A program made the translations under genes and the position numbers. From assembly GCA_030062745.1 (NCBI GenBank), contig CP099839.1:3953115-4017114 (forward strand): a stretch of 64,000 nucleotides of DNA, given 5' to 3'. Shown here piece after piece: positions 5,380-54,183 of the stretch. Below the pieces are notes generated by a model. The model searched no databases, was not told the DNA's origin, and saw only the letters and a list, made by a program, of their open reading frames with translations. Numbering within the stretch: position 1 is the stretch's first letter; each line of letters begins with the position of its first letter. Origin of the DNA: Capitulum mitella (taxonomy: Eukaryota > Arthropoda > Thecostraca > Pollicipedomorpha > Pollicipedidae).

Positions 5380-8300
5380 CTACGACCTGCCCGCCCCGTA
5401 CCGGATCTTGCCCTTGACCTTCTTCGGGTTGAGTCCGAACGCCTCCAGGCGGGCGTCCGACATGGACAGCACCATGGCGGCCGGCGTGCCCTGGCCCGGC
5501 CGGCGGCCGCCGTCCCGCCCGTGCTTCCGCTCCTTGCGTCCGCCGGCCGGCTCAGCGCGGCCGCGGTCGGCCGGCGGCGGCGCGCCGTCCGACTGGGCGT
5601 CCCCGCTTCTTCTTCCGGCGCCGGTGAGCGGCCGGCTCCTCGCCGTCGGCGGCCGGCGCCGGGCCGGAGCCGGCGTCGCTGCCGCCGTCCCCGGGCGCCG
5701 GACGGCCCGAGTCGTCCCCAGACTGGCGCCGTTTGGAGCGCTTCTTCCCCGGCGTCTGGTCCGGCTCCTCGCTGGCTGCGCAGGCGGCTGCGGCGGCCGC
5801 CTCACCGTCTGGCTGGTGCTTCCGCTTTTTGCGTTTCTTGGTTCCTTCTCCGCCGTCTTCGTCAGTCGCCGCCGATGCGCGGCCACTGGCGGCGGGTGAC
5901 TGGTCTGGTACACCTGGCTCTGCATCCGGCCTGTGTTTCCGCTTCTTGTGTTTTCTGCTTTCCACAGCTTCTTCTGTTCCTGTTGAACAGCTTCCGTTGA
6001 AGGCGGCTGGAGCGGGGTTTATGAACATTTGGCAACTGTGCTGCATTGTCCTCTTCCCCGGGCTCCTTTTCCTTCCTCTTCCGCTTCTTCTTCTTTTTCT
6101 TTTGTGGTTCGTACGTCTCTGGGTCTTCGTTCGGGTCACCTTCGCTGTAAACAATGACGAGAGCTATCTGAAGACGCATCGCCATTGGGAAATGCCGCTT
6201 GTCACCCCATTTCTGGCTGCGTGCAACAACTAACTCGAATATTTTGTCACTGTGCAATTTTAAGCTAATCTGCCCCGTGCGACTGGCCTCCATATCTCAA
6301 ACATTCCGCTACTGGTGTCACAGTACGGAGATCACACTATCCTAGAGTAACTACCATGTCTTCTGGCAACGATGGTTCTACACCGTGCGCGCCTAAGGCC
6401 TAACCACAGAGTTTCGCTTTGAGTAGAATATTATGAAAACAATCTCTCCGTTAAAAACGTCTCTTGGCGTATAACCTTTGAGACTCTCGCTTCGCACCAG
6501 CCAGGTTTGTCATACCTCGTGTATAAGCTCTGCAGGATTTTCTGTTTATAAGCGGTATTTCGGGCTTTCGCTTTGTACTTCTTTACATCGAGCAGTTCTT
6601 CGTCGAGTCGCCGGTACTGAGACATTTTCTTAACCGACACCCATCGGTTCAGGTCCCGTTCGTCCGCCATCAGCACCTGTCGGGATAGCACGGCCAGCGG
6701 GCGACCGAGTTCAGCCGCGCGCTCTGTATGGAGACGAACGACAAAACAACGCGGCCTCTTGTGGCAATACGTCGCCACTTTCCCGAGGTATCCTAGCCCA
6801 AAACAGTCGATCAAAGCAGCCCCTGTCACATGCGGTCCATCAGCTCATGTAGAGGCGTGACGCGACTGAAGAACTCAAGTCGTCCGCCTCCGGGAAAATA
6901 CCAATATCTCGACAAAGGGTCACTTCTTCAAGAGGGCAACATCCACGTGTTTGAATGCTATGCGTTTTCTTTTATTCATGTCAGACCCCTAAAGGAGAAA
7001 TACGATTTGGTTAAATGGTGGCTGTTTCAGGAGACACTGCCTGGTTGATTCCGTGCATGACAATGGAAGAAAGTGCAAGAACACATCATTCGTCGAGGGC
7101 AGCACGCTCAAGCATGACATGTCTCACGCTGTTCCGACAAATGATTTCTCGTATAATGAAACCCGCAGACCTAACCGTGTTCGGTAATGTCTAACCGATT
7201 GTTCAAAGCCCTCGGTCATATTATTTTTTTGTCAGATTGTCCCTAGATCAACCAAACTCAAGCACATCAGCCAAATTCAGCATAAATTTCATGGCCTGAT
7301 GTCATCAAACCGCAAAGATAACACGAATCGAACATAACCATGAGATCACCGCTTGACAGGAAAATCTCACTCCCAAAAGCGCTAACGCGCAACGCGTGCA
7401 ACCCACCAATGTCCGGGCAACGCAGGCTTCGGATCAGTCTTGCACTTACGGTCGGCGTGCGCGCCCCAGCCACCGCCCACGCAACCCACCTCGGTGGCGT
7501 CCAGGCCGAAGTCGTTGGCGGGCACCTCCCGGTAGCGGAACGGCTGCGGGTTGGCCAGCTCATCCAGCCGGTAGTACTGGTCCACGTAGTCGGCCAGCGC
7601 CTGCGGGCCGTGCGGGTCGAAGCGCGGCTTCTGGCGGCGCAGCACCTCCGCCAGCCGGCCGCGTCGCTTCTTGCGGCCGCGCCGCGTAGCCTCGATCAGC
7701 TGCTGCTGCGTCTCGGCGCGCGGGTCGTACTCGCAGTCCATCTGAGGCCGGCAGAGAGCGTCACGGCGGTCAGTGATCATCAGCAGTCCATCTGAGGTCG
7801 GCAGAGAGCGTCACAGCGGTCAGTGATCATCAGCAGTCCATCTGAGGCCGGCAGAGAGCGCCACGGCGGTCAGTGCTCATCAGCAGTCCATCTGAGGCCG
7901 GCAGAGAGCGTCACGGCGGTCAGTGATCATCAGCAGTCCATCTGAGGCCGGCAGAGAGAGTCACGGCGGTCAGTGATCATCAGCAGTCCATCTGAGGCCG
8001 GCAGAGAGCGTCACGGCGGTCAGTGCTCATTAGCAGTCCATCTGAGGCCGGCAGAGAGCGTCATGGCGGTCAGTGCTCATCAGCAGTCCATCTGAGGCCG
8101 GCAGAGAGCGTCACGGCGGTCCGTGATCATCAGCAGTCTATCTGAGGCCGGCAGGGAACGTCACGGCGGTCAGTGCTCATCAGCAGTCCATCTGAGGCCG
8201 GCAGAGAGCGTCACGGCGGTCAGTGCTCATCAGCAGTCCATCTGAGGCCGGCAGAGAGCGCCACGGCGGTCAGTGATCATCAGCAGTCCATCTGAGGCCG

Positions 8301-11300
8301 GCAGAGAGCGTCACGGCGGTCAGAGATCATCAGCAGTCCATCTGAGGCCGGCAGAGAGGGTCACGGCGGTCGGTGATATCAGATCAAAGCCGTTCCGACC
8401 CACAGCACTGGAGCTTGCGGCGCAGTGTGCACACAAATTACATGAGATTGCGAGGACCTTCGACAACTGCGCCCTGGATTACGACGCAATGTTCTTGCTT
8501 AAGAAACAAGGAACGACAAAAAATGTTACTGAACTATGACCTCCTCAGATGATTTAAGAGGCTTTTTCGTGCCAGCGATTTCGAGAAATTACTGTACCTA
8601 TAAGACATATGTTTGAACATCACGGCGTGAAATACATGTCGATAGCAAAGCCAACCATAAGATATAAACCGATTTGTCCACATAACGTTAACCCTTCTGG
8701 TACAGCCGAGGTTGTGCGATGGCCACGAAACCAGGACCGATCCGAAGTGAACGTGGCTGGACAGGATGTCAACTTTCAGAGCTACGCACGGGCCGTCAGG
8801 ACGCCACTCCCCAGGGTTGACAGGCCCGGACAGAATGCCATTCTCACGGGTTTTCACCGCCAGGCGGTCTCGAAAAGCGGAAACTTGGATCGCGGACAGG
8901 TCACTCGACGTCCTCTGGAATACTGCATTATTTGCCAACGACTCCACAAGCCTTGTGTTCGACTTAAAGCCATGGAACTCCTGTACTATATTTTTCCGCT
9001 GACGGAACTAAAAAACGAACAGCCGGGCGGATGTACCGAAACAGTCTCGTGGACGGCACGCTCACCACAAATCCGGGCTGCTCGCAGGCCGGCGCGCCCA
9101 GCTGGGACTCCTGCTCCTGAGCATCTTGTGCTCCATCCTCTGTCTCTGGCTGCCAATCGTCCCAGTTCTCTGCAAAACAAACACGTCCGCTACATTTCAC
9201 GTTTACACATTTTGGGCCTCAAAGGAGGGTCTAGAGGTACCGGCACCAAACAACGGAGAGGCGAAAGCCAAATCTGACCATGACCAAACAAGAGGTGCCA
9301 ACAGCTGTTCATTTCCCGGGCTTCCAGAGCAGCAGGCGAACATTGAGAGGCCTTCTCCTTATAACCTGAAGATAAACGTTTGGATCCAGGCTGGTTAATC
9401 AATAACCACATGAACGAAGTCTAATGCAAGCCACTGGGTTTTAATTGCCACCAGAAATTTCCTAGCGTGGGGGGAGGAACATGACGCATCCTACCGTCAT
9501 CGGAGAAAACTGGTTTCTCATCTCCCTCTTCATCAGCATAGAAATTATCGTCATCGAAAATTTGTTGCATTTTCTTATCGTGCTGCTCTGGGTCAAAGTC
9601 GGTATCCAGATCGTTGGCCTGAAGCAAACAGACTTTCGGTCAACACGATCACGAAAGTATTCTACGGGGATCACAATGGACGAAGTAGTAACAAATACAA
9701 TTGCAGACATGACACGTCGGAGTCGGAGACCAGTCTGCAGCAATCAGTCACAAGCATTTGGTTTCCCAACTAAGTCACAATCAATCGCAAGGATTGCTGC
9801 TGGCGTTCATCCTCATGATACGTGTTTTCAGCTTAACAACCAGTGGTCCAAAAACGCGAACACATACCTCAAATGGCAACTCGGCATTGCCAACGGCTTC
9901 TTTAAGTTGCTCAAGCTTTTCCAGAATTTCTTTACGTTTTAAGGCCTTCAAACGTTTCAGTTCTTCTTCCTTTTTCTTTTTCTCTTCTTCTTTCCTCCGC
10001 TTCTTGTCTTCTCGCATGTTTTTACGGCGGTCATCTTTCTTTCTTAACGAATTTTTTATTGTTCTAGGATAGCGTTTTATCTGCCAAAGGAGGCAAAGTA
10101 TAAATTATGACAGAAAGAACACATTATGAAAACATAACCTTGCGAGGTCAATCTTGGTGCAAGTCAGATATGACTTCATATCTGCCTCTTACTGGATGGA
10201 GAAAGAGTAGTTTCCTTACAGGGTAAGAAATATGTCAACATGGCTATAATAAACCTTTTTGGCTGAGGTACAAGATCACACTTTTGGAGTGTAAAATGTT
10301 AATGAAAAATACTAATAAAAAATATAAAATGGAGCGCATATTTTCTGGTGTCCTCAAGCACCAAAAACACCTTTTCCATCCTTGCCTGCAACGCCTCCCC
10401 CCGCCGAAGAAGGGCCAACTCACGAACTCCTGGTCGGGCTCCTCGAACCTGAAGTTGAACTTGTGCTCGAACTGCTCCTGCTGGCCGATCGTTCGCTCGT
10501 CCTCCGACAGGTCGTCGGCCGAGTCGTGCACCACCTCGTCATAGCTGGGCACGTACGAGTCGTCTCCCTCCTCCAGGTACCTGCGGCCGACCACGACACC
10601 CGGTACGACTGGGCCCGCCCGTCCACGGAGCCGCACGCGCATTTCATCGGCGAGAGGACGAATCGTCCAACCTCAAAGTCCGGCTCAAAACGACAAAAAC
10701 TGGCCAGAACAGAAACAACTGCAGAATGGAGCTATCATGTTGCCACTGGACTCACCGCTTGCTGAGGATGTAGTCTCGTAAGAATGCTTCGTCTTTTGAG
10801 ATGCCAGGGTTCGACCAGGCCTTTTTTAGTCCGGTGAGATCACGTTCCATTTCCTTATCCTTCACAGACTGCTTCCTCCCCGCCAACCAGGACTTGTACT
10901 GCCCATCCTCTTTCTCCTGTTAACAAAAACATATGATCATCACTGAAACCTACTAAAAAGACAACACAGTACTGACCAGCTGTGCAAATTACCACGTGAC
11001 ACGCTGTGCACAACGTAATTGGCTCCCAGCAGTACCTGCCCCCGAAAGTTATCCAAATGGACCCAAGTGGGGCAAGGACGATGATGGCTTAAGACGACTT
11101 TGAGGTGATCCGCAATTTACGACAGCTATGAACCGTTTGGAGCTGGCACAGACATGTCACATACCACACGTCTCCCAACACATCTAATGCATCACATCCA
11201 CTTCACAGTTTTGCATTGAGGCGAGACAACCACCACAGTGACCACGACCCGTCGAGCTAGAAAAGGTCCGACAAACTGCGAGGAGGCGTCGTGGTTCCGT

Positions 11301-14300
11301 CCTGAAGATCTAGTCGTATTTGGGCTAAAGCACGCAAAGGCCATGTCACGGCAAGGAAGGCCGTAAATTTCAGAAACTGGGATCATTCCTTATGCACTTC
11401 CGTCTCCAGTGACACAGTTTACATCGATAACCCGATTATCACCGGATATACAATCCATGCATTTTAATCATAGGCCGTATCAATGGCCGTTGGCACCATT
11501 TGACAATCGTTCGAGAAATACCGCTAAACGGACCACACCCTTTTGCGATAACACGGCCAAGCTGAAGCATCTACCTATGAGGGTTTGTTAACGCGGGATG
11601 CTACACCATGGATGGTGCAAACAGTTGTTGCCCATCACATGCCACGGGCGCTTTCTGTGTTTCAATGAGACTAAATGGCAGTCCAAGCGACCAATGCGAA
11701 TACCTCGTTCTGATTCGACCCTTTCTTCTCCCGCAACAAATTGCCGCCAGGGTCATCGCCCTCCTCCCCATCGGAGTCGTCGAGAAACGCCCTAAAACCG
11801 GCTTTGATATCTTCCTGTTCCTCGACATACGTCTTGTCAGAGCTAACACCAGCCGTGCTTTGATCATCTGTGAAAAGATTTAAAATTCATTATTAAGGAG
11901 GAAAAAATGCAAGCACAGAAAACGGTGATTTAACACACAGCACGCGAGGCCAAAGGGAAAACACCATACATAGACGTCGTAGGGCTACCATGACAATGAA
12001 CACATAAGAACAGGACGTTATCAGCTGCTATACAACGACAACGACCTGGGAAGTTTAGGGACTCCTCAAAGCATATGGGTGCAACTCACCTTTTTCATGA
12101 TAAACTCCACCAGTCATCAGCATTTCTCGTTCATAGTCTCTCAGGTACATTGGCTTGTTTTTCTGTTTCTTTCTACTTGCAGGATCCTTGTTTCTGTCTT
12201 CCTTTTCCTTGAAAAACTTTTTCCCCGGGTCGTAGATGTCTGGATCATTTTCTTTCAGCTTCGAAAGAGCCTCAAAAAACTGTTTTTCGACCTCGGGTGT
12301 GATTTCCTGGAATGTGTACCAGCGGACGTCTAGCAGTTTACTAGAATACGGCATTAAAATATTTCCACAGTAAAATAAAAATATTGACACTTTTTATGCC
12401 CGAGCAGCATCAAAGTCTCTGAACTTGTATGTTTGATGGAAAAGCCACCGATAAGACAATAGCCATTCTGCGAAAATGATTGAGCGAGGGGGCGGCGGCG
12501 GTCAAAATGTTTACCAGCAACATAAGATCCGTCATGCGTGGAACATCCCCAACATGTGGATATCCAAGCAGAATTGGGGCCAAGGTTGATAGGGTCCGAT
12601 GGTGGCTTTCTCGACGAAAAGTAATGCTTTTAGCTTGTATGTACGTCATTCCACGTCAAACTACATAGGGATTGACCCAACCCTTTCGATTTTGATGAAA
12701 TTTGGTGCGCTCACCGAACCTATCAAACGATGGCCAGCCAGAAATTTTTAGCCTTGGGTGACCTCTGAAGTCAAAAGTATAGGTCATGAAAGGCCACTGG
12801 TTATTAAAGACACTGCATGATTTAAATGCCCATAACTAGGTGACAGACTGTCACAGCAAGGCGTGGTTACCGCCATTCAAAACATAAATGTTCCGCTTTT
12901 CCGGTGACCACGGGATGACCTTTGACCTGACCAGACCACATCGAACATTTTCGGTTTTTACCATGTCTGCCCACCGTGATCTTCGCGAAAATGTAGCACA
13001 ACAGGTCTCCAAGTATCCGCGATAAGTGTGGCAAAAAGAGGACATTTCTAAACAAGCTGGAACCTTTTCATGTTTCATGACTTAAAAGATTCGAAGTGGC
13101 GTTTAAAAAAAATTAAAAAATATGACCTGAGGCTATCTGACAGATACTGATTGATTTTGTGCCTTTCGTCTGTCCGACTGTTCAGCAGTCCGGTGTGCAA
13201 AATGTCCTGTACGCCTGCTACACATCAGGTTTGTTTCAAAACGCTTGCCACAAAAGATCAAAGGTCATGTCACCCACCACCAATCAAACACTGCCATTCA
13301 ATTCTGACATACCCGTTCTTCACAATTCTACGAAAGTATGTCCATCGGGTATTTTGTGCTTAATTCCAATTGAGACAATCACAGTGGTCCATCGGGACCT
13401 TTGGAAGGTCGACCGAGGTCACTAACATCAGTTGACCTTGGACTGCCTGTGTTGACCTCGGATCATTTGGATTTTGGGGGGCGTTGATTTGATGTCATTT
13501 GCAACTATTCCAACATTTAAGACAGCACGTCATGACAAAAAAATGACACCATCTAGATGAAATGAAATCCTCGATATGTGCAAACCTCTATACGTTAATA
13601 ATATACATGGAATTTAGAATCAAAACCCTAAAAACGTTGCTGGATGGTTATTGGGGCTTAGGGGCGCACCGACTGCAGGGTCATTCGGCGTCCACAAAAA
13701 CGCTGTCAACGGCCCCGAGCCAACAGTTTATCCAAGGTCAGTCGACATAAATGGCCTTGGCTGACCTTCAAAAGGCCTCGATGCTCGACTAAGATTGCCT
13801 CAAGTGTCCAGGACTAACAGCATCTGACAGACTCACTTCCGTGTAAATGTGAAGAACGGATACGTTAAATCTGGATGGTAGGAGTCGAATGGTGGTGGGG
13901 TATCGTGACCTTTGACCATTCTGGTCACGAAATTTAAAACTAAGATGACATGTAATAGGCACACGGGACACTGTGTACAGCAAATTGTAGAACAATCGGA
14001 CAAAGAATAGCGCGAAACCAATTTTCGTCAATTACCCTCCGGGCATACTTCTCAAGCGACACTTGACAACACTAAATTTAAGGTATCTGAAAAAGTCTTA
14101 AGGTCTTAAAAAGTCAAGATATATGAGAAGTCTTTTTACCTCAGAAAAAAAGAATATCTCAAAAAAAAATTTGACCACAGGCATTTTTTGCCAAGCTTAT
14201 TGTAGATACTTGGGGACATGTACTACATTTTCGTGGAGATCCTGATGGGCAAACATGGTTAAAACCGTAAATGTTCGTTGTGACCTTTTCGGGTACAAGA

Positions 14301-17300
14301 TGAACCCGAGGTCACCAAAAAATAACCTGCTCATCAAACCTGGAACATTTCCCTTTCGAATGGCACTTATCACACCATTCCGTGACAACCTACCACTGCG
14401 TTATGGGCATTTGAATCATGCAATGTCCGCAAAAATCGCTGACCTGTGACCTGTAACTTTGGTTTCCGAGGTCACTCTGGACTAAAATCTCAGGCTGGAC
14501 GTTTTTCGATCGGTACTAAAGGTGTACCAAATTTCACTAGAATAGGAATAGGTCTGGTCAATTCTGCTGCACTTTGCCCGGAATGACCCATATATAACAA
14601 AAATAACCCTGAGCTTGATATACTCAGTACAACAAATGTGTACAAGAGTAACAATCACTGGAAGTGCATACCTTTACAACATGGATCTTAGTAATGGTCA
14701 AGATGTGGAGATTTTTTTAGGTAGTTTTCCACATAATCAAACGATCATTTCTACTACATCTGTTACCATCTGGCCAAAATGCCAAGATGTAGTTGAAATG
14801 TTAAATGAACATGGGGACAGGATCAATGTTAAATGAACATGCCACAGAAACAATGGATAAGAACAAATCAGCACTCATTACTGGGACAAAATCTTACCTC
14901 TGCATCTTCATCTTCGGAAGATGAAGAATCATCGTCAGCATTGCCCTGGTTGACTGAAATATCTTTTCCATACTTTGCTTGCACTGAAACAGAAAAATAA
15001 CATTATTTTGAATGCAATGAAGATAAAGCTATTGTTATTCTTCACCAGAAATCGTTCAAAATGCAGCTGTTTTGTCTGCTTTGAAACTGTAGGTAATGTC
15101 CCTATTCACATATTAGAAAAATCTATCAACTTAAAAATACTATTACTGTTTATCCCTTGCTTTATTACAGTTGGCATCTAAGTTCTTTATAACAATAAAC
15201 TGATAACACCTTCAATTTCTTTTGAAAAACAGCACCATGAGGATTAGCCCATCTGACCTTAGGCACCAACTAGAACTTAACACAGTGATTTAAAACACCA
15301 AACATCACCCATTTTTTCAGTCTGACATGTGCTACTGTTGCAAATGATTACACAACATGGCACCCCACCACAGTCGGCCAAAGATGGAACAATACCAGCT
15401 CAGCTCATCATCTTGATAAGTTGTGTGCTTCCTGTTTCCCAGTGCATGCACTAATGTATGCAAGCATGTACAGTTTTTAGTTTCATTTAACATGCACCAT
15501 AGAAGGGGGTTTTGCACTAACCCACACCAGAAAGGGGGGCACAAAATGCCTCCTCCTATCTTGGAAATGGCAAGGGCCAGAGGCATAAAATTCTACAGGG
15601 TACAGTAGGATCATAAAGACTTACATAGTATGAAATTATCATTACCCTAGACCAGTATCCTCAAGGCAAAATGGGGTCAAAAGGTCAACTCTGGACACTT
15701 TCTTGGCCTGTCAACTCTGGACACTTTCTTGCCTGATAAGCCATTCTGTATGGCTTTTGAACAAAAGACAAAAGGGTGTGTGTTTGAGCATTAAAATGTG
15801 AAATGTGAGTCTTACAACAATGCATCCCAGTATTGGCATGTCTCAGTTTTGAACCATGTGGGAGCAAATTTATCCAACTTTGTGGATAGGGACAAGACCC
15901 ATCAAGGGGACCAAATATGTCATACCAAAGGTAGCACAACCTGCATTATGATGGGCATTCCTGCTTAAGTGGAGGAAGAACAGACTCCAGTCAGGATCTG
16001 GGACCCAATGACAAGAAGGCATGTCAGTTACCCACCATTCCAGTGCAAGCAGGAACTGGTCCAGTGAGCTAAAGGCTAACTAAAGGGTGGACAGCTGGTG
16101 CAAAAAAAACTGACTGGCACAAGTGTGACAATTCCAAGCCTGCACAGTAACTGATGAAGGCCAGTGGGAAAGGCCACCAGATTCTATTGCAGTTCAAGTT
16201 GAGGCCCAAGCTAGTATACCACAGCAGCCTGTACACTTTCATCCAGTCCCATGATCCACTAGCAAGAAATGGAGATGTTTAAACCACCTGACCCCTACTG
16301 GAGTCTTTGTGTGGTTTAGACAGCAGATGTTTTGTTTTATGCAGTGGCTGCATCATTCCATTCCATATGGACCTGATTTCACATATGATTACCATGGAAT
16401 AGAGGTAACAATGTAGGCCAGTCAAGTGTTACACAGGAGATTTCAGGTGATCACAAAAGAGCACAATAAAAACATTTCAAGCTTGTCAATTATCACTGAT
16501 TAGTAACTGTTATGCCAGCCAATCACACTGGACAGGTAACTGTGATCTGATGAAGTGAAATGATAGTCCTCCAGACAAGCAGCCTGTGGGTTTCTATAAG
16601 CTTGCTGCAGGTTGCATTAAGTACAGTTAGAAAACAATTACAGTGCAAAGAGAAATTTGTGATTGCAATTCTGGGTACACCAAACTTTTGAGGCAATTGG
16701 TGATCTTTGTCAACATGAAAGCTGAAAGCAGACATGACCTGCCAGTGACAAGGCTTGCAGTACTTGGACATGGTTATTCATGTCCTACTTCAAAGGCAGT
16801 TTTAGCAGGCAATCCTTTAGAAGCGCACGCCATAAACCAAGCACACTGGATGACACATATACGGCGCGCGTGGCAAAAGGAGACGTCAGCTGTTGCGAGA
16901 AACAACAACATTATGCACTGGAGCTCCAGGTCGTAGATCACCTACTATTCGCTCTTGTTTTACACAGTAGGTTAGGTTAGGTTAGGTTAGGTTAGGTTAG
17001 GTTAGGTAAGGTAAGGTTAGGTTAGGTTAGGTTAGGTTAGCGAATAGTAGGTGATCCACGACCCTGGAGCTCCAGTGTATAATGTTGTTGTTTCCCGCAA
17101 CAGCTGACATCTCCTTTTGCCACGCGCGCCGTATATGTGTCATCCAGTGTGCTTGGTTTATGGCGCACGCTTCTAAAGGATTACCGTTTTAGCATCATGA
17201 CCGCAGAATGCGGGTCTCTGAGGCCATGAGGAAGTGGAAGCATCATTAACAAACTGGTTTTCAGAAACTGCAACCTGTAGCTGAATGTACAGTTTGTGCT

Positions 17301-17647
17301 GGCTTCAATGAGCATAAGATAAATTCATAAACATTTGATTTTAATGGCAGGCTATACATTCCATCCATCTCAAATGAAACAAGTCAGTTAATTCCAAACC
17401 ACAAAGACAATGCAGATCACTAACAGGTAACTCCAAAATTGCCCAAAAATCGATGGAATCTCCTGCCCTACAAGACAATGCGTAGCACTTCCTTTTGCAC
17501 ACCCACAATGTCCTTATTTCAGCAGCCATACTTACATTTTTGGTATTCCTCCTTCTCCCTCCATTGGTTGTACCTTTCAGCATACTTCCCGCTTACGGTG
17601 AATCCCTTCTCCGACCCAGAAGAGTCGTCATCAAATAGGCGCGCCAT
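5380..17647 (-). CDS. KRI1: KRI1, nucleolar ribosome-biogenesis factor, 12 coding exons
   Basis: KRI1 works with KRR1 in the nucleolus in early 40S pre-ribosome assembly. Exons on the minus strand: 17647-17536 (start, [16 protein letters not shown]), 14983-14898, 12306-12090, 11867-11704, 10916-10756, 10580-10424, 10080-9868, 9618-9495, 9169-9066, 7741-7490, 6676-6516 and 6144-5380. All junctions are GT-AG and phases agree throughout; with two one-base corrections in the last exon the model is 837 residues (human is about 700). Family landmarks in order are [126 protein letters not shown] joined to [17 protein letters not shown], a Lys-rich tail, and the C-terminal [15 protein letters not shown]. 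The long basic tail is nucleolar in character. Frame breaks sit at G4 6014-6017 and C4 5601-5604. Introns 1 and 2 carry large inverted repeats. Confidence 0.95.
7735..8380 (-). repeat. 13-copy, 50-bp minisatellite that contains the KRI1 exon-10 splice acceptor
   Basis: The plus-strand motif tctgagg recurs at 7741, 7791, 7841 and every 50 bases to 8341, giving 13 copies with a few substitutions each and no length change. Read on the minus strand (the sense strand of KRI1), each unit holds CACTGAC, CGCTCTCTGCCGGCCTCAG and ATGGACTGC. The copy at 7741 is the true 3' splice site of exon 10, so the array repeats the acceptor plus the first nine exon bases. In the internal copies ATGGACTGC is followed by TGA instead of GAG. 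Confidence 0.95.
12640..14600. repeat. Large inverted repeat, about 2 kb, in KRI1 intron 2
   Basis: The left half (about 12640-13440) and right half (about 13780-14600) are diverged reverse complements. Examples are tagttatgggcatttaaatcatg (complement of 12817-12839) against ttatgggcatttgaatcatg (14401-14420); gatacttggagacc (complement near 13005) against gatacttggggaca (14207-14220); and ccccaccaccattcg (complement near 13885) against cacccaccaccaatca (13271-13286). By eye the arms agree at roughly 65-75 percent, with about 340 bases between them. No coding capacity is visible. Edges are approximate. Confidence 0.8.
16811..17182. repeat. Foldback element with a TTAGG array in its loop (KRI1 intron 1)
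   Basis: The left arm 16811-16953 and right arm 17039-17182 are near-perfect inverted repeats of about 143 bases. The outer end is aatcctttagaagcg on the left and cgcttctaaaggatt on the right. The inner end is cctactattcgct on the left and agcgaatagtagg on the right. The loop, 16966-17038, is mostly a (TTAGG)n array of about 14 units with two TAAGG variants. There is no open reading frame of note. Confidence 0.93.
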
Positions 17648-27486: not shown

Positions 27487-28430
27487 CAGTGCAGCCGACG
27501 TCAAAACTGAGTACGAGTGTAGTGAATCACCAGTGACATGATCTAAACGGATGATCTGTTTTTGGAATATCCGAGCGCGGACGAGCGACCTCTTCACTCC
27601 GACTTGGCGAGGACGTCAGCGGCCAGACACCAGGTTCCGGGACAAACCACGGCCGGTCGGCGGAGGGTCCCCTCCGTACAGCGGCGTCGGCCCGGCCAGC
27701 ACCATATCGAGGTCACGCGCCCTCCGCGTACCGCCGGCCGGCCTCCGCCCGCCGGCCCATTGTACTGTAGAACCAACGACGCGCTCTCCTCCACAGCCTG
27801 ACGGGTGCACAGGTAGGCGCTGGCGGCCTCATAAGGCGGCGGCCGTCCGGTCACGGGCGGCCGCAGCCGGCTGCCGCTTCACGCCCTCCGCCGCGGTACC
27901 GGGCGCCGGGCAGACAGCCGCCGGCTCTTATCTCCAGGCAGCTGGAGACAGCCGCGCCGCCGGCGCCCGCCGAGGCCTTGTAGCGGAGCGCAGGGAACGT
28001 GAGCCGACTCCCGCCTGCCGACCTTTCCTCGGACCGCGGCGGCGCCGGCCGGCCAACCAGGCCTCCCACGGCGCCCCGTAGGTAACCCAAAAGCCAGGGC
28101 GGTCGTGCCTCGCGTGATCGCCAATGTCGACAGCACTCATTCAAAGTGTCGCCCCGCCAGATTGCAAAACCCCATCGGGAGACTTTCCGAGCTACCACTG
28201 CTAAAAAACGGGCCCGACTGGCAACCAACGCGCAAACGCCAAACGGGCAAACGCACACTACACGCGCACAACCGAGCCCGCCCGTTCAGAAGGCACAGTT
28301 ATCATGGAGACGCACGACTGGCGGTCGCCGGGCGAGCGGCTGCCAGCACCACTCGGTCGCCATCTGGAGTCGCCGACAGACGCTCCCGCCCGGGTACGGT
28401 CAGCGGGCCACTGTCTCAAGTACCAGGTCC

Positions 28431-28750
28431 AGCTGCAGGCGAGTCGGGCCGCAGCGCCAGACCCAGCTGCAGACGAGTCGGGCCGCGGCGCCAGACCCAG
28501 CTGCAGGCGAGTCGGGCCGCGGCGCCAGACCCAGCTGCAGGCGAGTCGGGCCGCGGCGCCAGACCCAGCTGCAGGCGTGTCGGGCCGCGGCGCCAGACCC
28601 AGCTGCAGGCGTGTCGGGCCGCAGCGCCAGACCCAGCTGCAGGCGTGTCGGGCCGCAGCGCCAGACCCAGCTGCAGGCGTGTCGGGCCGCAGCGCCAGAC
28701 CCAGCTGCAGACGAGTCGGGCCGCAGCGCCAGACTCAGCTGTACAGACGG
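28431..28750. repeat. 34-bp minisatellite downstream of LEMD3 stop
   Basis: The motif agctgcag recurs at 28431, 28465, 28499 and every 34 bases to 28703, with a degraded copy at 28737. The unit is GC-rich (cgagtcgggccgcagcgcc core) with an a/t and an a/g variant position. Because 34 is not a multiple of 3, long open frames through it cycle through three peptide registers and are not evidence of coding. It lies in the presumed LEMD3 3' UTR. A short (AGGTC)n run follows at 28829-28857. Confidence 0.9.
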
Positions 28751-28863: not shown

Positions 28864-31800
28864 TCAGTCGTCCTCGGCCTGCGGCCGTTTCAGGGCGGTC
28901 AGCGAACGGCGCAGCTGGTTGGAGGGCCGCAGCGGCTCTGTGGCGCCCACGGCGTCCGGGTACCGCTCGTGGTACCGCTCCAGCCGGATGAACTTCACCG
29001 ACACCAGCCGGCCTGCCGGCGACGCCGGAAACACCGACCGCTGATCAGCCGCCGGCAATCTAACACCCACAAACCTCAGAAAACACGAGCTAAAGCGAGA
29101 CAAGGGTGAAACGGCATTTCTGCAGCCTGGTAAACATCATGAAAACATCTGTACTTCGCGCTATGAGCGGAGCCAAGACAACGACGGAAAACGTGAACGT
29201 TGCACGTCACGGAAATCCCGGAACTCCAGCAACAAGCTTCTGGACTGTTATGACTAAATGTATTACTGGTCTCTCAAAACCGTTTAAAACGTGCAAAAAC
29301 ATACTGTGCCACCTTCCCTTTGTGACTGACACAATGTTTCACCGACAAGAACAATAAGCGCTTTCAGCAGCGACCCCAAACAACAGTACCAGAAGAGCAA
29401 TGCTTCTGACGCGATGTCAGACACACCTGACGAACCAAAAGTGCCGTCAACGGCAGCCAGCTCACCGTCAAACCAGCAGCCCTGGATCCGCTTGAAGGCG
29501 CTGAGGGCGTCGTCGTCCGAACGACACTTCACGTAGACGAGGCCTTCGGTGTTCCGCTCGTCCACAGCCATGTGCAGCACCACAACGTCCTCACACTTCT
29601 CCAGCAGGGCGTCCCGAATCTCCTGCATCCAGGCCGTGCCTGTTTCACTGCGGAATACAGTGGCGGCGCGTGACGGGCGGTCCTCGTGCTGTCTCGCGCC
29701 GGAACCATCGAAACCCAGCCCCGACCCAGGACACCACGGGGCAAGGCCGAACCAGCCTGGTTCCGGTCACAGGACACCTGGAGGAGACCAAACCCAGCAA
29801 GCCGCGGTTACAGAACACCTGTGGGTTAGATCAGACCACTGGAGGATCCGGGGGTAGAGGGGAGTGCAGGGCATCGAGACCATGCCCCCCTTTTTGTTGG
29901 AAAAGGGGGCGCCAACATGTCTTGGCCATCCTTTTCGAACGGAATGGTAATTTTCGAAACGTTTTTTAAACTCATGTTTATTTTCGAAAACGGCGAAACC
30001 AAGTGGCCGGAAACCAGGAAGAAATCAACTTTCTGGGGTACGTTAGATTACACGGACGGAGCTTCGGCCCCTTCCCTTAACGCACACGATCTGGATCCGC
30101 CCTTGGACCAGACGTAGCCGATTTACACAGGTGACTATACACGAACGTCAACAAAGCGAATCGAGTGATACGGCGCAGTCTTCTGCGCCCGGTGAGTTCA
30201 CACAGCGCGCACTGGCGTCCCCAACGGCCCACTCTCGGCAGTAAAAAAACACCCCCCGGGGGGAAAAAAAAGAAAAAAAATTTTTTTTTTTTCCTTCTTT
30301 TTTTTTATAATAAAATTATATAATTGGTTGGCTTTTTTTTGTTTTAAAAAAATTTTTTTTCCTTTAAATTTTTGTTTAAAAAAACGCGGAAAGGAAGCCA
30401 GCTCCGTCCACTCCCATCGTGCTGCACCTGTATGCCTGGTACGACAGTAAGTACCAGTCCTTCGAGATCCATATATTTACAGACGACAACTTTTGGGGTG
30501 GAACATTGTGCGTTTTCGACCATTTTCATTCACAGTGAATGGAAGACCAGGCTGAAAACCTTGTGAATCAATGTCCAGCAAGCTGTGGTGGCTCGGGAAT
30601 GTGAAGTTTTGTAACATTCATACTGGAGTTCGAAACGAAGAAAGCCTGTCTGTCACATGACGCCTGGGAGGAACTCAACAATGACCGGGATCAACAGAGC
30701 GGGAGGCGCGGGCAGCCGTGAGCGGCCGTCACTCACCAGGACGGGTCGAACATGTGCCGGATCTTCAGACACGGAGTCCGGGTGTGGACCGGCGTGTTGA
30801 CGCCGCTGCTGGTCTGGAAGGCCTGGCCCAGCCAGACGCGGCGGCGCCCGGCCGCGGCGGCCGCCGCTGACGACGAGGGCAGCCACCGCCAGACGGGCTG
30901 CGATTCGCCGGCCACCAGGACGCACTCTTCCCTCACCTGCCGACACAGGCCGACTGCACGTTTACTGTACCGGTCACGGTATCGGCCACCAGAATACACT
31001 CCTCCCTCACCTGCCGACACAGGCCGACTGCACGTCTACTGTACCGGCCAACGACACAGACCTGATACACGGTTACTGCACCGGTCCCCAACAAAGGCGA
31101 GACGCACGGTCACGGTATCGGCCAACAGCACGCACTTCTCCCGAGCCAACCGACACAGGCCTAACACACAGCCACCGCAACCACCGCACCGGCCACCGGA
31201 ACGCACTCCTCCCGAATCTGCCAGCACAGGTCCAACACAAGTTCACCGCGCTGGCTACCAGCAAAGGCCCGGCTCGGCCACTGAAGATCCAAACATAACG
31301 CTGACGCTCTGATTCAAGCGCTGACGAAGGGCGACGCGCCACACAGTCTGTCAGCGGCGGGCTGGCGGTGCCGGCCCGGTATCGGCTCCACTTACCCTGC
31401 TCTCCCGGTCGCGGATGAAGCGGACTGCGCGCTGCCACAGCGCCGTCTTCTGCCGATTGCAGCGCTCGGCCGGGGTCAGCAACTGGTCACGGACGTGGTC
31501 CACCGCGACGTACGGCTGAAAACACCGCACAAGCTCGTCACTTTTAACACACGTAACTTCAACAAACTTCCGCGTGACATCGCAGCATTTGTTCCAGAGC
31601 GGTTCCGCATCGATGTTATTATTTTTATTTCTAGTTTTTATTCTTTACTTTTACGTGATATGTACTAGATGCTGATGTGCTATGATGCGATAAATATGTG
31701 ATCTGGTATGTACGTGACTAACCTTGTTTGCTCCTTAACCATGTGACACGGGGCTGTATAGCGACCACCACGGTGGATAACCCTAAGAAACACAGTAAAA

Positions 31801-34800: not shown

Positions 34801-37600
34801 GCCGCAGGACGGGGGATCGGCCCAAACCCACAACGCAACGGCTTTCCGCACATACCCACAAACAAAAAAAACACCACCAGTACACCGCACACAAGCCCAC
34901 ATCGAGCAAGCGACAACGTGGTACAATACAGTACACATCGCGTTACAACACGACGCACGGAGCACGCGTCACAGAGTGGACCGCGCCACGTGACAGCGCG
35001 CTGGCGCCAGCCGGCCGTAGCCCCCAGGAGGCGGCAGCCGGCGACGAGGTGGCGCTCACCGGCGGCGTCCGAGTCGCCGGCCGCCGCGACGTCCGTCCTG
35101 CCGTCCGCCGCCTCCTCCGACGGCTTGGTCAGGCTCAGGTAGGAGAGGCCCAGCGCGCCGAAGAAGAGCAGCGCCAGCAGCAGGATCGAGTACGGCACCA
35201 GGTGGGAGGCGCCCGAGCCGGCCTGGCCGCCGTACTGGCCGGCCGGCCGCTCCAGCTCGGCGCCGGCCGTCCAACCGCCGCCGCCGCTGCTGGCCGCGTT
35301 CATGCGGCGCCGGAACGCCTGCAGCTGCTGGCTGGGAGTAAGCGTGGTGCCGCCGCCGGCGGACGGTTCCTCCTGCTCACTGTCCGAGCCGGTGTCGTAG
35401 TCGAGCGGCGGCGGGCCGGCGGCCGGCGCCGGCCGGCACCACTCGGCCACGCGCTGGCGTAGCGTCGCCGCCGGCGGCTCGGCGTCCGCCTGCAGGCGGA
35501 CGCCGAGCGCGCGCGAGGACGTCCACGGCTTCGGCGCCTCGCGCGCCGCCGAGCCCCGGTCGGACGCCGAGGAACGAGTTGGTACCGAGCGGCGACGGCC
35601 GAACGCCGGTAAGCGGCGACGGCCGACTGCTGGCCAGCGGCGACGGTCGACCGCTGGCCAGCGGCGACGGCCGGCCGGTCGCCAGCGGCGACGGCCGGCC
35701 GGTCGCCGGCGGCGCCGCCGCGTCCGGCTGGAAGACCCGCGTCTGTCCAAACAGGCCGCGCAGCGACGCGCCGGGCCGGCGCGGGGCGGACGCCGGGCCC
35801 GGCTGGGAAACGGCCGGCTCCGGCAGGCCCAACCACCCCCGGGAAGACACCGTCGGCGACAGCGCGCTCGACAGGTAGTGCGTCGTCGGCGGCGGCGGGT
35901 CGTACTGTCCGGCGGGGCGGGTCGGCGGCTGCGGGGAGACGACGCCGCGCCTGCGGTAGGTCAGCGGGTCGGGCGGCTCGTCGTCCAGGTCCATCGGCTG
36001 CGGCGGCACGCGGTCGACTCGGTCCGCCGGCTCCGTGTCCATCTCGTCCGCCGGCCGGTGGTCGGCGCGGCGGCGCGCGGCCGGCGCGGCGGCCGCCTGC
36101 CGGGCCGGCGAGCCGCGCCGCCGCCGGCCCGGCTCCGGCTCGGCGTCGTGTCCGTTGACGGCGGCCAGCTGCAGCTGGCTGAGCCTCTTCAGGTACACGT
36201 GGCGCGTGGCGGGCGTGATCGGGCCCGGGCTGTGGCCGAGCTGCTGCAGCCGCGAGCGCAGCTCGGCGTCGCTCAGGGCGGCCGCCTCGTGCCCGTTCGG
36301 CGGCTCGCTGGCGCCGACGCGGTCCGCCTGATGACAGAGGTCAAACGCCGCTGTGGATCTGACTACTGGGGAATGTCTGGCCGGACGACGATCCTCAGCG
36401 ACCCATCGGCAAAAAACGCATACGAAAGTGCCAGTTTTAGTTCTGTAAGACACCACTGCGCTCTTATGAAAGACTAACAGAATGTCAGACGTATCCCATT
36501 CCCCAGAGTTTAATGCAAACAAACACCTCAGGGGTTCTTCTGTTGCCTGAATTCTGACTTTTGACCAACTTGTGGTAGCCGTACCTGTCCCGTTATATGA
36601 CCAATTATGCAAAGAATGACGCAATTTCAACTGTAGCATGGCCGGTTAGTAAGTCAACATATATCGCATTCTGTCCACAAACTTCAAATAACGGCTCAAA
36701 AAAGCGCCGTCTCGACACAAAGTCTGCGCGCTCAGAAGCAGTCTGAGTTGGCAGCAGCAGACCTTGCTGTATCGATGACGGTAAACGGCAATCTGTATCG
36801 GCTAAAAGCCTGATATCTCTCGGGCATTACGTACTGCATAAACATACTTGTGATTACGTTCCCGACTGCGTGATTCATGCCGGCTTGGCAGAAATGATAA
36901 GGAAGCAGACAATGCTCGAGCAATGAGGCCCCTGAGTGAACATATTGCCATGCATGCACATATGCCCAATACCAACAGGCAGTTTTTGCATCTTGGTTTG
37001 AGATATAATGGTTCAAGCAGTCAAAGACTGGCTATACTGCACAATTCTATCAATGGTTCTCACCAAACCGGCCCTTTCTTGTACGTGACCCCGTGCCTCG
37101 CCAAAACAGAACTAAATTCACGAAGGCTCTGGTATGGAGTCATGCTGCACAAAACGAGATTTGCTTGTAAAGTAGCAAAAGAAATTATAGCATGCAAGAA
37201 TGCAAAGATCTTATAATACTATGCCACGCAGCTGACGTCCTTGACAAAATGCCACTAATTTGTCTTATATCCCCTTGTCAATGGCAAACATCTGCTCTGG
37301 AGCAAAACCTCCACAAAACTAAAATATCTCCAGACAACTTCCATGCAAATGTTCTGGCCAACATGCACAATTCAGATTCATCATTCAATACAAATAACCA
37401 CACTACTCACCTCTTCATGTCCATTTGAAGCGAAGGGCATTTGCTTCCTGTAGTTTTTTCAATTTCTTGAGATAGGTTTGCCTGGTGGCTGGTGTAATGG
37501 GGCCAGGATTCAGCCCGAACTCGAGCAACTGTGATCTGAGCTCTGAGTCATTCAGCATGGCTGCTTCAGGTCCGGTACATGGCCCAATGTACTGGGATGG
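28864..37600 (-). CDS. LEMD3: LEMD3/MAN1 inner nuclear membrane protein with two LEM exons
   Basis: MAN1 sits in the inner nuclear membrane, binds BAF through LEM, and binds SMADs through its C-terminal domain. Exons: 37600-37411 (LEM-a), 36327-35060 (LEM-b, linker, TM1), 34103-33904, 33370-32974, 32203-32058, 31515-31396, 30936-30737, 29647-29466 and 29012-28864. With one extra base removed from each of the first two exons, all phases close and give 949 residues (human 911). LEM-a is at about residues 14-54 ([20 protein letters not shown]) and LEM-b at about 76-116. A RPSPLA/TG repeat is near 275-305. TM1 is near 442-466 ([20 protein letters not shown]), TM2 near 663-697 across an intron. 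Then come [46 protein letters not shown], a UHM/RRM ([27 protein letters not shown]) and the stop. One intron uses a GC donor. The first exon with a start codon is not identified. Confidence 0.93.
30242..30385. repeat. Homopolymer-dominated block in a LEMD3 intron
   Basis: Almost every base belongs to a run: C6G6, A8, A8T13, T9, A7T8, A7 and so on, between normal-looking intron sequence. It resembles low-quality consensus more than any known repeat class. Confidence 0.7.
30910..31260 (-). repeat. About 72-bp tandem units covering the acceptor of the 30936 LEMD3 exon
   Basis: Units start with ggccaMc on the plus strand at 30910, 30984, 31120 and 31191; the second is expanded to about 136 bp. 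The first unit contains the real 3' splice site (minus strand: CTGTGTCGGCAG then GTGAGGGAAGAGTG). The second repeats the acceptor and about 26 exon bases nearly unchanged. The third and fourth are more decayed. Confidence 0.85.
31491..31858 (-). repeat. 50-bp direct duplication of the 31515 exon's acceptor region
   Basis: 31491-31540 and 31809-31858 are about 80 percent identical. The shared core is acgtacggctgaaaac (plus strand), which on the LEMD3 strand is GTTTTCAG followed by CCGTACGT. The upstream copy would code for PYVAVDSVR, against PYVAVDHVR in the true exon. Ordinary intron sequence separates them. Confidence 0.8.
33371..33830. repeat. Degenerate 20-25 bp repeats in the LEMD3 intron before exon 33370
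   Basis: Variants of acagccgttacgggccaca recur through 33430-33480 and 33660-33830. A matching segment, gacagccgttaagggccgca, is inside the downstream exon near 33326-33345. Spacing is irregular. Confidence 0.6.
34097..34745 (-). repeat. About 60-bp tandem units covering the acceptor of the 34103 LEMD3 exon
   Basis: About ten units of 55-66 bp begin with ggccactgccgg-like sequence near 34099, 34158, 34224, 34288, 34395, 34450, 34505, 34566, 34627 and 34691. One stretch near 34300-34380 is replaced by A-rich sequence. On the LEMD3 strand each well-preserved unit ends CCGGCAG then TGGC, which is the real acceptor plus exon start at 34103. Units also share gatcagctctgacc and aaaacagcaggacacagaaac. 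Confidence 0.85.
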
Positions 37601-38960: not shown

Positions 38961-40309
38961 CAATCTTCCCAAAAACCATTCAGCAATGTGACTTTGATCC
39001 CTGACCATGGCAGGATCCCCACTAAACACAAAACAGCCCAAACACAGTGTGACAAGTATACTTTTGATGACAACAACAGCCATTTATGTCACATTTCAGG
39101 TTATCACACTAATCACAACAGGGCAGTCAACTGAAGAAGCAGACAAAAAGAAACAATTTTTGGGATACTGACTGGGAATTTCTATTTCTTTAATCAGTAA
39201 AATATAGTGGAGTCTGGGCTATAGTTTTGTATGGTGAATCTAATTAGAAAACTGATCATAAGAACACAGAATAGGTTAAACATCCCAGTGTTACCCATTT
39301 GGAGCCCCACACATGACAAAGAAATCTACAAAATGTAATTAAGCCAAGAATGCTGATGACAGGGGGTATAATTCAGGTCTATAAACCATAGAGGGGAGAT
39401 TTCATAAGACTCCACCTTTGCTACTGAAACAGGCATGACTTAGGGCAACCACTTACATACTCAGAATTCATGTGTTAGAAGGAAAAGGCTCACAATTTAT
39501 ATGAATGAGGGAATATCATGTGTAAACATTCTGCTCCACATACACATACACCATACACCAAATGTCTGGAAGAGCCCACCACCCTTTGCTGTATTGGCAC
39601 AAGCACTTAACATCTTCAAGCCAGTTGGGTGACCCATGGGTCTGAGCAATACCTCTGGTGAACAGTGAAGAAAAGAATCCATGAACTACCAGCAGGAAAG
39701 ACAAAGCAAAGATCAAACAGGCTCATAGCCAAAATCCCAAAATCCTGCCACACACAAAATCTGAACATCAGCAATGCTGGGGTTGTTGGTACCCATTTTT
39801 AACAGCGCAAATTTTCTTTACACTTCAAGTTCAGTGTCTGTGCATTCTGGTTTAGTCATTCCACCTGTAGCTGTAATGAGACCAATTATTATCCACTTAA
39901 TAGTGCCACCTGTTCTATTTTTCCATTTTTTGTAACAGATGTCTCCTGAATCATTTGCTAGCATGATGCTAGGGATCACAGCCCATGCTAAGCAAGGCTA
40001 TTTGCAATCAATCTATCTCATAGACCACACTATTTTATTTCAGGTAGCTGCCAATTTTGCAGTGAGAGTTAAACATATTGTCCAGGGTACAACAGTGTGT
40101 TAGTTATCATGGACCTTTGTTAGCCACCTGAGTCTCTCTCACAGCCAGATGTCCAGCTTCAGTACTTCCTTCCATGAATCACTAATGGGATAACGTTAAC
40201 TATTCAAAAGCTGGGGGCAGAACTGACCCCAATACCTCTGGTGATACTGCCACTGCCCGCAAGCCCAACAGTATTATCGATACAACTGTTTTTGGAGGAA
40301 GACTGGCCA

Positions 40310-41125
40310 TGCAACACATTTTTTCCCAAATGCTAGTTTCTAGCAGAAAATTGCATAAATGGCATAAAAACCATACAACAGATGGTTATAAGGTAAACAC
40401 TTGTGATTCAGTGCTGCATTATATCATTCCAAGATGAGAAATGTGACAAAATGCCAAACAATATCGTCACTCCATTCACTGCTGACCACTGTGCCACTTG
40501 TCTGTTTGGTTTCTGTCAGGATTATCTGCTAACAAATTCAAAAAGAACAATTCTCGAGGTTAAGGTACTTTATGCCTTATGTCATCAGCATAATTAAACT
40601 TAAAGACTAATAAACAAGATTAAAAAGATACCTAAACTAAATCAACCTAACCCAACCCAATCCAACCCAACCCAACCCAACCTTACCTAGCCAAACCAAA
40701 CCTAACCTAACCTAACCTAACCTAACCTAACCTAACCTAACCTAAACCTACATGCAACCTAACCTCTGCTGAAACAGAGCCAAGTTTAATCACACCTTTT
40801 ATTGGCCTGTGGCCTCTAGCATCCCACACCATGCCTTTGGCACAACACTACACCCCACAAACTTCCCTTTATTGGCCTGTGTCCTTTAGTATCATTTACT
40901 GATGAAGTCATCAAACATCATGCAGTGTGTGGTGCATCCTTGGAGCAAAGGCAGTGTAAACAAGATGGTACCATGAATTCTAGTCAGGTTTGCTTGTGAT
41001 AAAATCCTTCAGAAACCATACTGGTGATGTTGCCATTTCTTTCTTTTATAAGAGTTTATGTGTTCTGCATCTTGTATACAGCAAAGTGGTCCATGAAAAG
41101 GTATAAATGTAGTATACTACTAGAG
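40310..41125 (+). repeat. Dispersed repeat with internal CCTAA array, copy 2
   Basis: Same family and orientation as 18620-19445. Its central array at 40632-40748 is the cleanest, with nine or so exact CCTAA units in its second half and CCCAA variants in the first. Flanking landmarks are gaaacagagccaagttt, ttattggcctgtggcctc and agcatcccacaccatg. Confidence 0.85.
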
Positions 41126-53090: not shown

Positions 53091-53280
53091 TAAACACAAC
53101 CGTGTGCTTCTTGTCTTCCCTGCTCTCCTGATACGCCCGCACGAAGTATTATTTCACCAAACTTTCGACGAAGTTTTGGCGTTACCGTCGTAGTCAAAGC
53201 GTCCGTTTTATCGCCAGCCAAGCAGAGTCCAAAACACGGTTCGTATCTCACAGCGGGGCAGGGGAGGCGGGGGATGCCGG

Positions 53281-53710
53281 CCATTGCAGGAGGGGATGCG
53301 TTGACCCCGGCCATCGCAGGAGGTGAGGCGGTGATGCTGGCCATCTCAGGAAGGGAGGCGGTGGCTCCGGCCATCGCAGGAGGGGAGGCGGTGGCTCCGG
53401 CCATCTCAGGAGGGGAGGCGGTGGCTCCGGCCATCGCAGGAGGGGAGGCGGTGATGCTGGCCATCTCAGGAGGGGAGGCGGTGGCTCCGGCCATCGCAGG
53501 AGGGGAGGCGGTGGCTCCGGCCATCTCAGGAGGGGAGGCGGTGATGCTGGCCATCTCAGGAGGGGAGGCGGTGGCTCCGGCCATCTCAGGAGGGGAGGCG
53601 GTGATGCTGGCCATCTCAGGAGGGGAGGCGGTGATGCTGGCCATCTCAGGAGGGGAGGCGGTGGCTCCGGCCATCGCAGGAGGGGAGGCGGTGATGCCGG
53701 TCACTTGAGG
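53281..53710. repeat. 30-bp minisatellite, 14 units
   Basis: Fourteen exact 30-base units of ccatcKcaggaggggaggcg plus ten bases that are either gtggctccgg or gtgatgctgg. The two variable sites combine so that units 2-5 and 6-9 form a near-identical 120-bp higher-order repeat. Since 30 is a multiple of 3 and the unit lacks stops, frames on both strands stay open for 140-200 codons. That is a property of the repeat, not evidence of a gene. Confidence 0.95.
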
Positions 53711-54183
53711 AGGGAAGACTTCATGAGAGACTTGAGGAGAGAAGAAGTCATTTCAAGAGGAAATCCCGGCCAGCTCGGAGGGAGCGGAGCATCTCTTTCC
53801 ATCTGGGCCGCCGGGACACACTTTGGCTAGTCGAGGGTCCGTGAAGGACTCCGGTTGAAGTGCAGGACCGCCTGTCCCTCGACAGGCCCGCTTAAATGTT
53901 TATCATCGGGGCAGAAAAGGGACGACGGTTAGTGAGACACTTCAGACATTGTTGCCCGTTGAAACGTTGGCTCACACAGAGTGTCACCGTCTATTAGTCG
54001 TTGCTGAGGAGAAAAGATTTCTGTCGCTTGGAAGCCTGTCTATATGTTATGCTTACCGCCATTCTGGTGTAAAATCAGTGTGTTTTGCCCGATTGTTTGT
54101 TGATGTTCTGCTGTGGTTTAGTATTCCAGTCCCGCCGCAAAACGCAACAAACTGAAGCGTTCCGACATCGGACATATAAAAAA

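Follow-up and report, generated by a model that had tools for sequence, protein, structure and literature searches.

Thirteen tandem copies of a KRI1 splice acceptor, of which one continues into the exon, as a probable mirage-type minisatellite

In a 64,000-nucleotide stretch of contig CP099839.1 (hereafter the window), an intron of the gene KRI1, on the minus strand, ends in a minisatellite whose 50-bp unit is repeated 13 times and comprises a complete 3' splice site together with the first nine bases of the next exon. The structure is real, clean and instructive, and it is of a known kind: in amphioxus, tandem repeats of intron/exon boundaries have been named 'mirages', and reverse transcription PCR (RT-PCR) suggested regular splicing there (PMC3087553). 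We consider it likely that the KRI1 array is a minisatellite of this type, near-neutral and with its terminal unit mostly used; the reading of the array as a regulator is unsupported. The array and its parts are as follows.

7733..8382, minus strand: array of 13 units of 50 bp, each a complete 3' splice site plus the first 9 exon bases (Tandem Repeats Finder (TRF), copies in register, 22-mer core)
7733..7782, minus strand: terminal (3'-most) copy, predicted true acceptor, with AG at 7743-7742 and exon start at 7741 (0 mismatches to consensus; frame open)
7783..8382, minus strand: 12 decoy acceptors, each leading to Met/Ile-Asp-Cys-stop (sequence comparison and translation)

TRF resolves positions 8382-7733 of the minus strand into 13.0 head-to-tail copies with a 50-bp period, 94% matches, 0% indels and a score of 1160. 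This bears out the original prediction of a full acceptor repeated 13 times at equal unit length; the span it gave, 7735..8380, locates the array and falls two bases short at each end. Each unit is composed of 41 intronic and 9 exonic nucleotides, the border between them being supported by the reading frame, and the consensus unit, cut after ATGGACTGC, is TGATGATCACTGACCGCCGTGACGCTCTCTGCCGGCCTCAGATGGACTGC. A 22-mer core, CTGCCGGCCTCAGATGGACTGC, searched with up to three mismatches, has 13 sites in the window, all inside the array (11 exact and 2 with one mismatch), against a chance expectation of 0.00 (100 shuffles, largest count 0). We number the copies from copy 1 (8382-8333) to copy 13 (7782-7733). 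Copies 10 and 13 show no difference from the consensus in any of the 50 columns, copies 2-9, 11 and 12 depart from it at 1-4 places, and copy 1, the 5'-most, is the most diverged, with 7 differences, 5 of these in the first five columns at the array edge. Any two of copies 2-13 differ on average at 2.5 of 50 nt (5%); one variant is common to five copies. Neither a distance-dependent similarity of units nor a higher-order repeat is evident within the array (mean differences of 2.9-3.5 at lags 1-6, copy 1 included). As had been predicted, these data are consistent with a recent or homogenized expansion.

Within each unit we find a branch-like CTGAC or CTGAT/CTAAT, a pyrimidine tract, CTCAG and the first nine exon bases. 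CTCAG is retained in all 13 units and CTCTCT in 12; a CTGAT or CTAAT lies 38-39 nt upstream of the exon in all 13, and CTGAC lies at -29 in 11. The longer motif CACTGAC, which had been ascribed to every unit, is exact in 10 of the 13 and differs in the other three. From column 8 of the unit to the acceptor, no other AG occurs in any of the 13 copies. A T-to-G change at column 7 creates an extra AG in five units (4, 5, 7, 8 and 11), upstream of CTGAC and downstream of the CTGAT/CTAAT motif, so that CTGAC is their only branch-like motif with no AG between it and the acceptor; units 1 and 6, which have no CTGAC, lack this extra AG as well. The unit border reads CAG/ATGG, except in copy 5, where it reads CAG/ATAG, placing a further AG within the repeated exon bases. 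The only GT of the consensus unit, at column 19 (CGCC/GTGACG), makes a poor donor by comparison with the splice-donor consensus.

Ten of the 12 decoys are identical to the true site over -13..+9, five over 39 nt and one over all 50 nt, so the unit's own sequence cannot single out the true site. In its -20..-4 interval the true acceptor has a pyrimidine share of 0.71, unremarkable for the gene when compared with 0.47-0.76 in the seven other modelled KRI1 acceptors, and a poor T share of 0.24, level with the two lowest of these seven. The intron contains 56 AG dinucleotides, 37 of them upstream of the array, and the AG nearest to the true site on its upstream side is that of the previous unit, 50 nt away. 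Under the scanning rule, by which the first suitable AG past the branch point gets used (PMC1431707), this distance would make the terminal unit self-contained.

The consequences of acceptor choice can be read from the frame. In the nine-exon model described below, whose open frame supplies the phase, the preceding exon closes in phase 0, which makes Met-Asp-Cys of the first nine bases of the array exon. As originally proposed, a single copy, at 7782-7733, leads on into that exon (ATGGACTGC GAG TAC GAC); the other 12 run into a stop. Splicing to any of the 12 upstream CTCAGs would yield EQPGFV-M/I-D-C-stop, followed directly in 12 of 12 cases by a second in-frame stop. The predicted outcome of Met-Asp-Cys and TGA needs amending in two copies: copy 5 reads ATAGACTGC and thus gives Ile-Asp-Cys-stop (Met in the other 11), and copy 7 stops at TAA (TGA in the other 11). 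The array exon is internal, as an argument from decay requires, and is followed by an intron at 7489-6677; splicing to a decoy would extend this exon from 252 to 302-852 nt and place the stop 290-840 nt ahead of the following junction. Junction-dependent nonsense-mediated decay (NMD) follows a 50-55 nt rule, which these distances would satisfy provided that the host follows it. Transcripts spliced to decoys would probably be removed by NMD, or would yield a KRI1 protein without its Kri1_C domain.

Judged from sequence, the array-bearing gene is KRI1, as first proposed. Of five minus-strand stretches scanned with Pfam, three match KRI1 families, and no KRI1 match was returned for 12055-12393 and 5380-6018. 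Nine exons joined at GT-AG borders give a partial model of 517 aa, with one frame open across eight junctions; because we set the borders by eye while watching the frame, its openness is in part built in. Against solved structures, the joined product finds yeast KRI1 with E 1.2e-17, its sole strong match. The parts of the gene model are these.

7490..7741, minus strand: KRI1 exon after the array, 252 nt, holding the first part of Kri1_C; donor GAG/GTGGGT (PF12936, E 5.4e-06, 26.9 bits against a cut-off of 25)
7742..9065, minus strand: intron of 1324 nt, 641 nt of it array (joined model)
9066..9169, minus strand: KRI1 exon before the array, 104 nt, ending in phase 0; donor TTTGTG/GTGAGC (joined model)
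6516..6676, minus strand: next KRI1 exon, with the second part of Kri1_C (PF12936, E 2.6e-10)
9495..12306, minus strand: six upstream KRI1 exons, at 12306-12090, 11867-11704, 10916-10756, 10580-10424, 10080-9868 and 9618-9495 (joined model)
17536..17647, minus strand: probable first KRI1 exon, 112 nt (from sequence and a motif scan with a KRI1-like pattern; no Pfam match)

The open reading frame (ORF) that holds exon 10080-9868 matches Kri1 (PF05178) with E 7e-09, and the ORF holding exon 12306-12090 has no KRI1 match in Pfam. The phase of the likely first exon implies at least one further exon before 12306. The label 'exon 10' originally given to the array exon is therefore plausible without being proven: the exon is the eighth of the nine in the partial model, with the likely first exon and at least one more upstream.

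A TTAGG-type array (16968-17040) falls in the span that separates the likely first KRI1 exon from the remaining exons; inverted arms flank it at 16808-16930 and 17063-17185 (123 nt, 95% complementary), the whole spanning 16808-17185. TTAGG is the telomere repeat of arthropods, and TTAGGG that of chordates. In the window, TTAGG-type arrays occur from 16972 and from 40701 onward and (TTAGGG)2 is absent, which makes an arthropod host more likely than amphioxus, though indirectly; the GC content is 0.50 and the CpG observed/expected ratio 0.91. A second telomere-like array, (AACCT)n, occupies 40643-40764, and a search of 40300-41100 around it turned up no inverted arms of at least 30 nt.

Under the explanation that we favor, a segment made up of the last 41 nt of the KRI1 intron and 9 nt from the start of the next exon would have been duplicated in tandem, the duplicate then expanding to 13 x 50 bp. 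Every unit brings its own branch-site-like motif, pyrimidine tract and CAG, so that choosing an acceptor would amount to choosing a branch point, after which the first suitable AG would be used. Full-length KRI1 mRNA would come from the 3'-most unit only. We infer that splicing mostly goes to this unit, as no other borders on the real exon, with its sequence beyond +9 and its downstream 5' splice site at 7489; early in-vitro work on duplicated splice sites is reported to have found that proximity to the 5' splice site and exon sequence both matter. A transcript that strays to one of the 12 upstream units would gain three codons and a stop. Since ribosome building depends on KRI1, enough transcripts must use the last unit, and the array would most likely be near-neutral, kept because they do. 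A terminal copy without departures from the consensus, and a 5'-most copy that has diverged most, are what one expects if the functional border is the founder or a constrained copy.

Several points weigh against this explanation. Use of the last site is a prediction from sequence, and the 12 near-equal acceptors lie nearer to the 5' splice site, where proximity would favor them. Because choosing a decoy does no more than extend the exon, from 252 to 302-852 nt, exon definition may not separate the sites strongly. The single-copy ancestor is putative: the KRI1 exons flanking the array (a stretch of 142 aa) have no relatives in viral, prokaryote and phage collections, and the unit core has no match in a viral contig collection, all being collections where absence says little. 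Conservation of the exon's first codons in other KRI1 proteins is a presumption, and the yeast alignment is weak there. Finally, the 3' boundary unit is undiverged, unlike the boundary units of the amphioxus globin gene BflGb6.

Two computations bear on whether the decoys are used or kept from use. Among 14 distinct substitution events (a count that leaves out the 5 edge differences of copy 1), two fall in columns 29-50, giving P 0.020 for this region, which was chosen after the fact, and P 0.158 for any window of 22 columns; selective sparing of the decoy acceptor signals is thus not significant in the substitution pattern of the 13 copies. Invariance of the AG itself is uninformative, the chance of no event in its columns being 0.56. 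Predicted folding of the array RNA is less stable than that of shuffled sequences, both over 200 nt (z +2.05, 198 of 200 shuffles at least as stable) and over 700 nt (z +4.16, 20 of 20), and we reject on this ground the notion that RNA structure hides the decoys. Weak predicted folding would fit accessible sites and may only reflect the make-up of the unit.

The bolder proposals, that the spliceosome reliably skips 12 acceptors for the thirteenth through exon information beyond +9 that overrides proximity and signal strength, or that a length-variable NMD rheostat sets KRI1 and ribosome-building capacity, seem to us unlikely. We regard as quite improbable, in particular, a dosage rheostat, used or selected, in which copy number would determine how large a share of KRI1 transcripts is spliced to decoys and lost to decay. 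In its favor, each decoy comprises a whole acceptor and leads to a stop 290-840 nt ahead of the next junction, and the length of the TERT intron-6 repeat VNTR6-1 can shift splicing and NMD (PMC11830802). Regulated use is nevertheless without support; the acceptor region is not significantly spared (2 of 14 events), and amphioxus mirages left splicing undisturbed by RT-PCR, according to their authors (PMC3087553). The claim that the array is 'tunable' and sets KRI1 output thus finds no support, and we retain the near-neutral reading as the default. In a different role, the 13 branch/pyrimidine units could act as a platform, co-operatively recruiting SF1/U2AF or a pyrimidine-tract binder and raising or lowering splicing at the terminal site. 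The retained CTCTCT is a motif bound by PTB, and the weak predicted fold would suit such binding; however, CTCTCT is simply part of each pyrimidine tract and the binding putative, and we hold this role to be very unlikely.

It is about as improbable as the rheostat that the array is an artefact of assembly or copy number and that the real genome has fewer or more units. Tandem arrays are often mis-assembled, and the BflGb6 mirage appeared aberrantly assembled in the draft (PMC3087553). On the other hand, 11 of the 13 KRI1 copies carry point differences from the consensus, indels are absent and the window has no N, while a collapse would lower rather than raise the number of units. Least probable of all, in our view, is a misplaced border, with KRI1 spliced, for instance, at an in-frame GAG that lies 12 nt inside the exon, and with the array as ordinary intron. 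This border (ATGGACTGCGAG/TAC) would preserve the frame, and the T share ahead of CTCAG is low (0.24 over -20..-4, equal to the lowest among the eight modelled KRI1 acceptors); against it stand the pyrimidine share of CTCAG (0.71), the branch-like CTGAC at -29 and a frame open from the ATG on.

The window contains other tandem repeats. A 34-bp minisatellite (28429-28741, 9.2 copies, 97% matches) lies past the stop of a minus-strand ORF (28864-29136), at a distance of about 120 bp, and we take this ORF to resemble the C-terminus of a LEM-domain (MAN1-like) protein; the neighboring ORFs 31354-31644 and 29287-29766 match nothing in Pfam at 0.01. A 24-bp repeat (35588-35714, 5.3 copies) falls within a minus-strand ORF that has a LEM domain (PF03020, E 1.2e-14); it is probably coding, as its unit is a multiple of three. 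A 74-bp tandem duplicate (30909-31047, 1.9 copies), perhaps in an intron of the LEM-domain gene, has a minus-strand unit with a donor-like CAG/GTGAGG, and a 30-bp array (53260-53714, 14.5 copies) has a 90-bp higher-order period and is open in several frames.

Several known systems invite comparison. The IFI6 (6-16) minisatellite is said, by the title of a 1995 report by Turri, to contain multiple splice donors. By that title, its units likewise each provide a splice site, but of the donor type, whereas the units of KRI1 are acceptors and, in the consensus, offer as their sole GT that of CGCC/GTGACG. UBC has been described (PMC10809524) as a tandem array of dual-specific splice sites that are equivalent and spliced stochastically. 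That system needs AGGT between coding repeats; the KRI1 array is intronic and its border, AG/AT, includes no donor. The TERT element mentioned above is an intronic 38-bp variable-number tandem repeat that affects splicing and NMD; it is tied to an expanding G-quadruplex in the intron, and in the abstract of PMC11830802 its units are not described as splice sites, which the KRI1 units are. We set aside the DDX3Y minisatellite MSY2 as a precedent, as it is described, in passages of PMC3039753, as part of a promoter and not as a source of acceptors.

Amphioxus mirages (globin genes BflGb6 and BflGb9, and Adh3) come closest, being, like the KRI1 array, tandem repeats across an intron/exon boundary. 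The BflGb6 unit joins the 3' end of an intron to the 5' part of an exon and is present 6 times in one of two haplotypes and 3 times in the other; AG/GT splice signals occur in many of its copies (PMC3087553). The KRI1 array shares with them a unit that spans the boundary, near-identical minisatellite units and one authentic copy continuing into the exon. It differs in dimensions: its 13 units are 50 bp long and each include just 9 exonic bases, compared with 6 or 3 units of 150-160 bp in BflGb6 and units of 10-72 bp in Adh3. As to the homogenized center of mirages, from which the boundary units are excluded, the most diverged KRI1 unit is the 5'-most (7 differences), the 3' boundary unit equals the consensus and dependence on distance is not clear. 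In the literature searched, among the matches listed and with the Adh3 papers and most subscription papers outside its scope, we found neither a published case with 13 complete acceptors nor a mirage outside amphioxus, which is not proof of absence. We class the KRI1 array as a further mirage, probably outside amphioxus, and if the host is an arthropod, mirage-type repeats would not be peculiar to amphioxus. With 13 near-identical, evenly spaced and complete acceptors, one of them productive, it also provides the natural test of 3' splice-site choice that had been anticipated, a ready-made experiment in which sequence strength is held nearly constant and distance and exon context vary.

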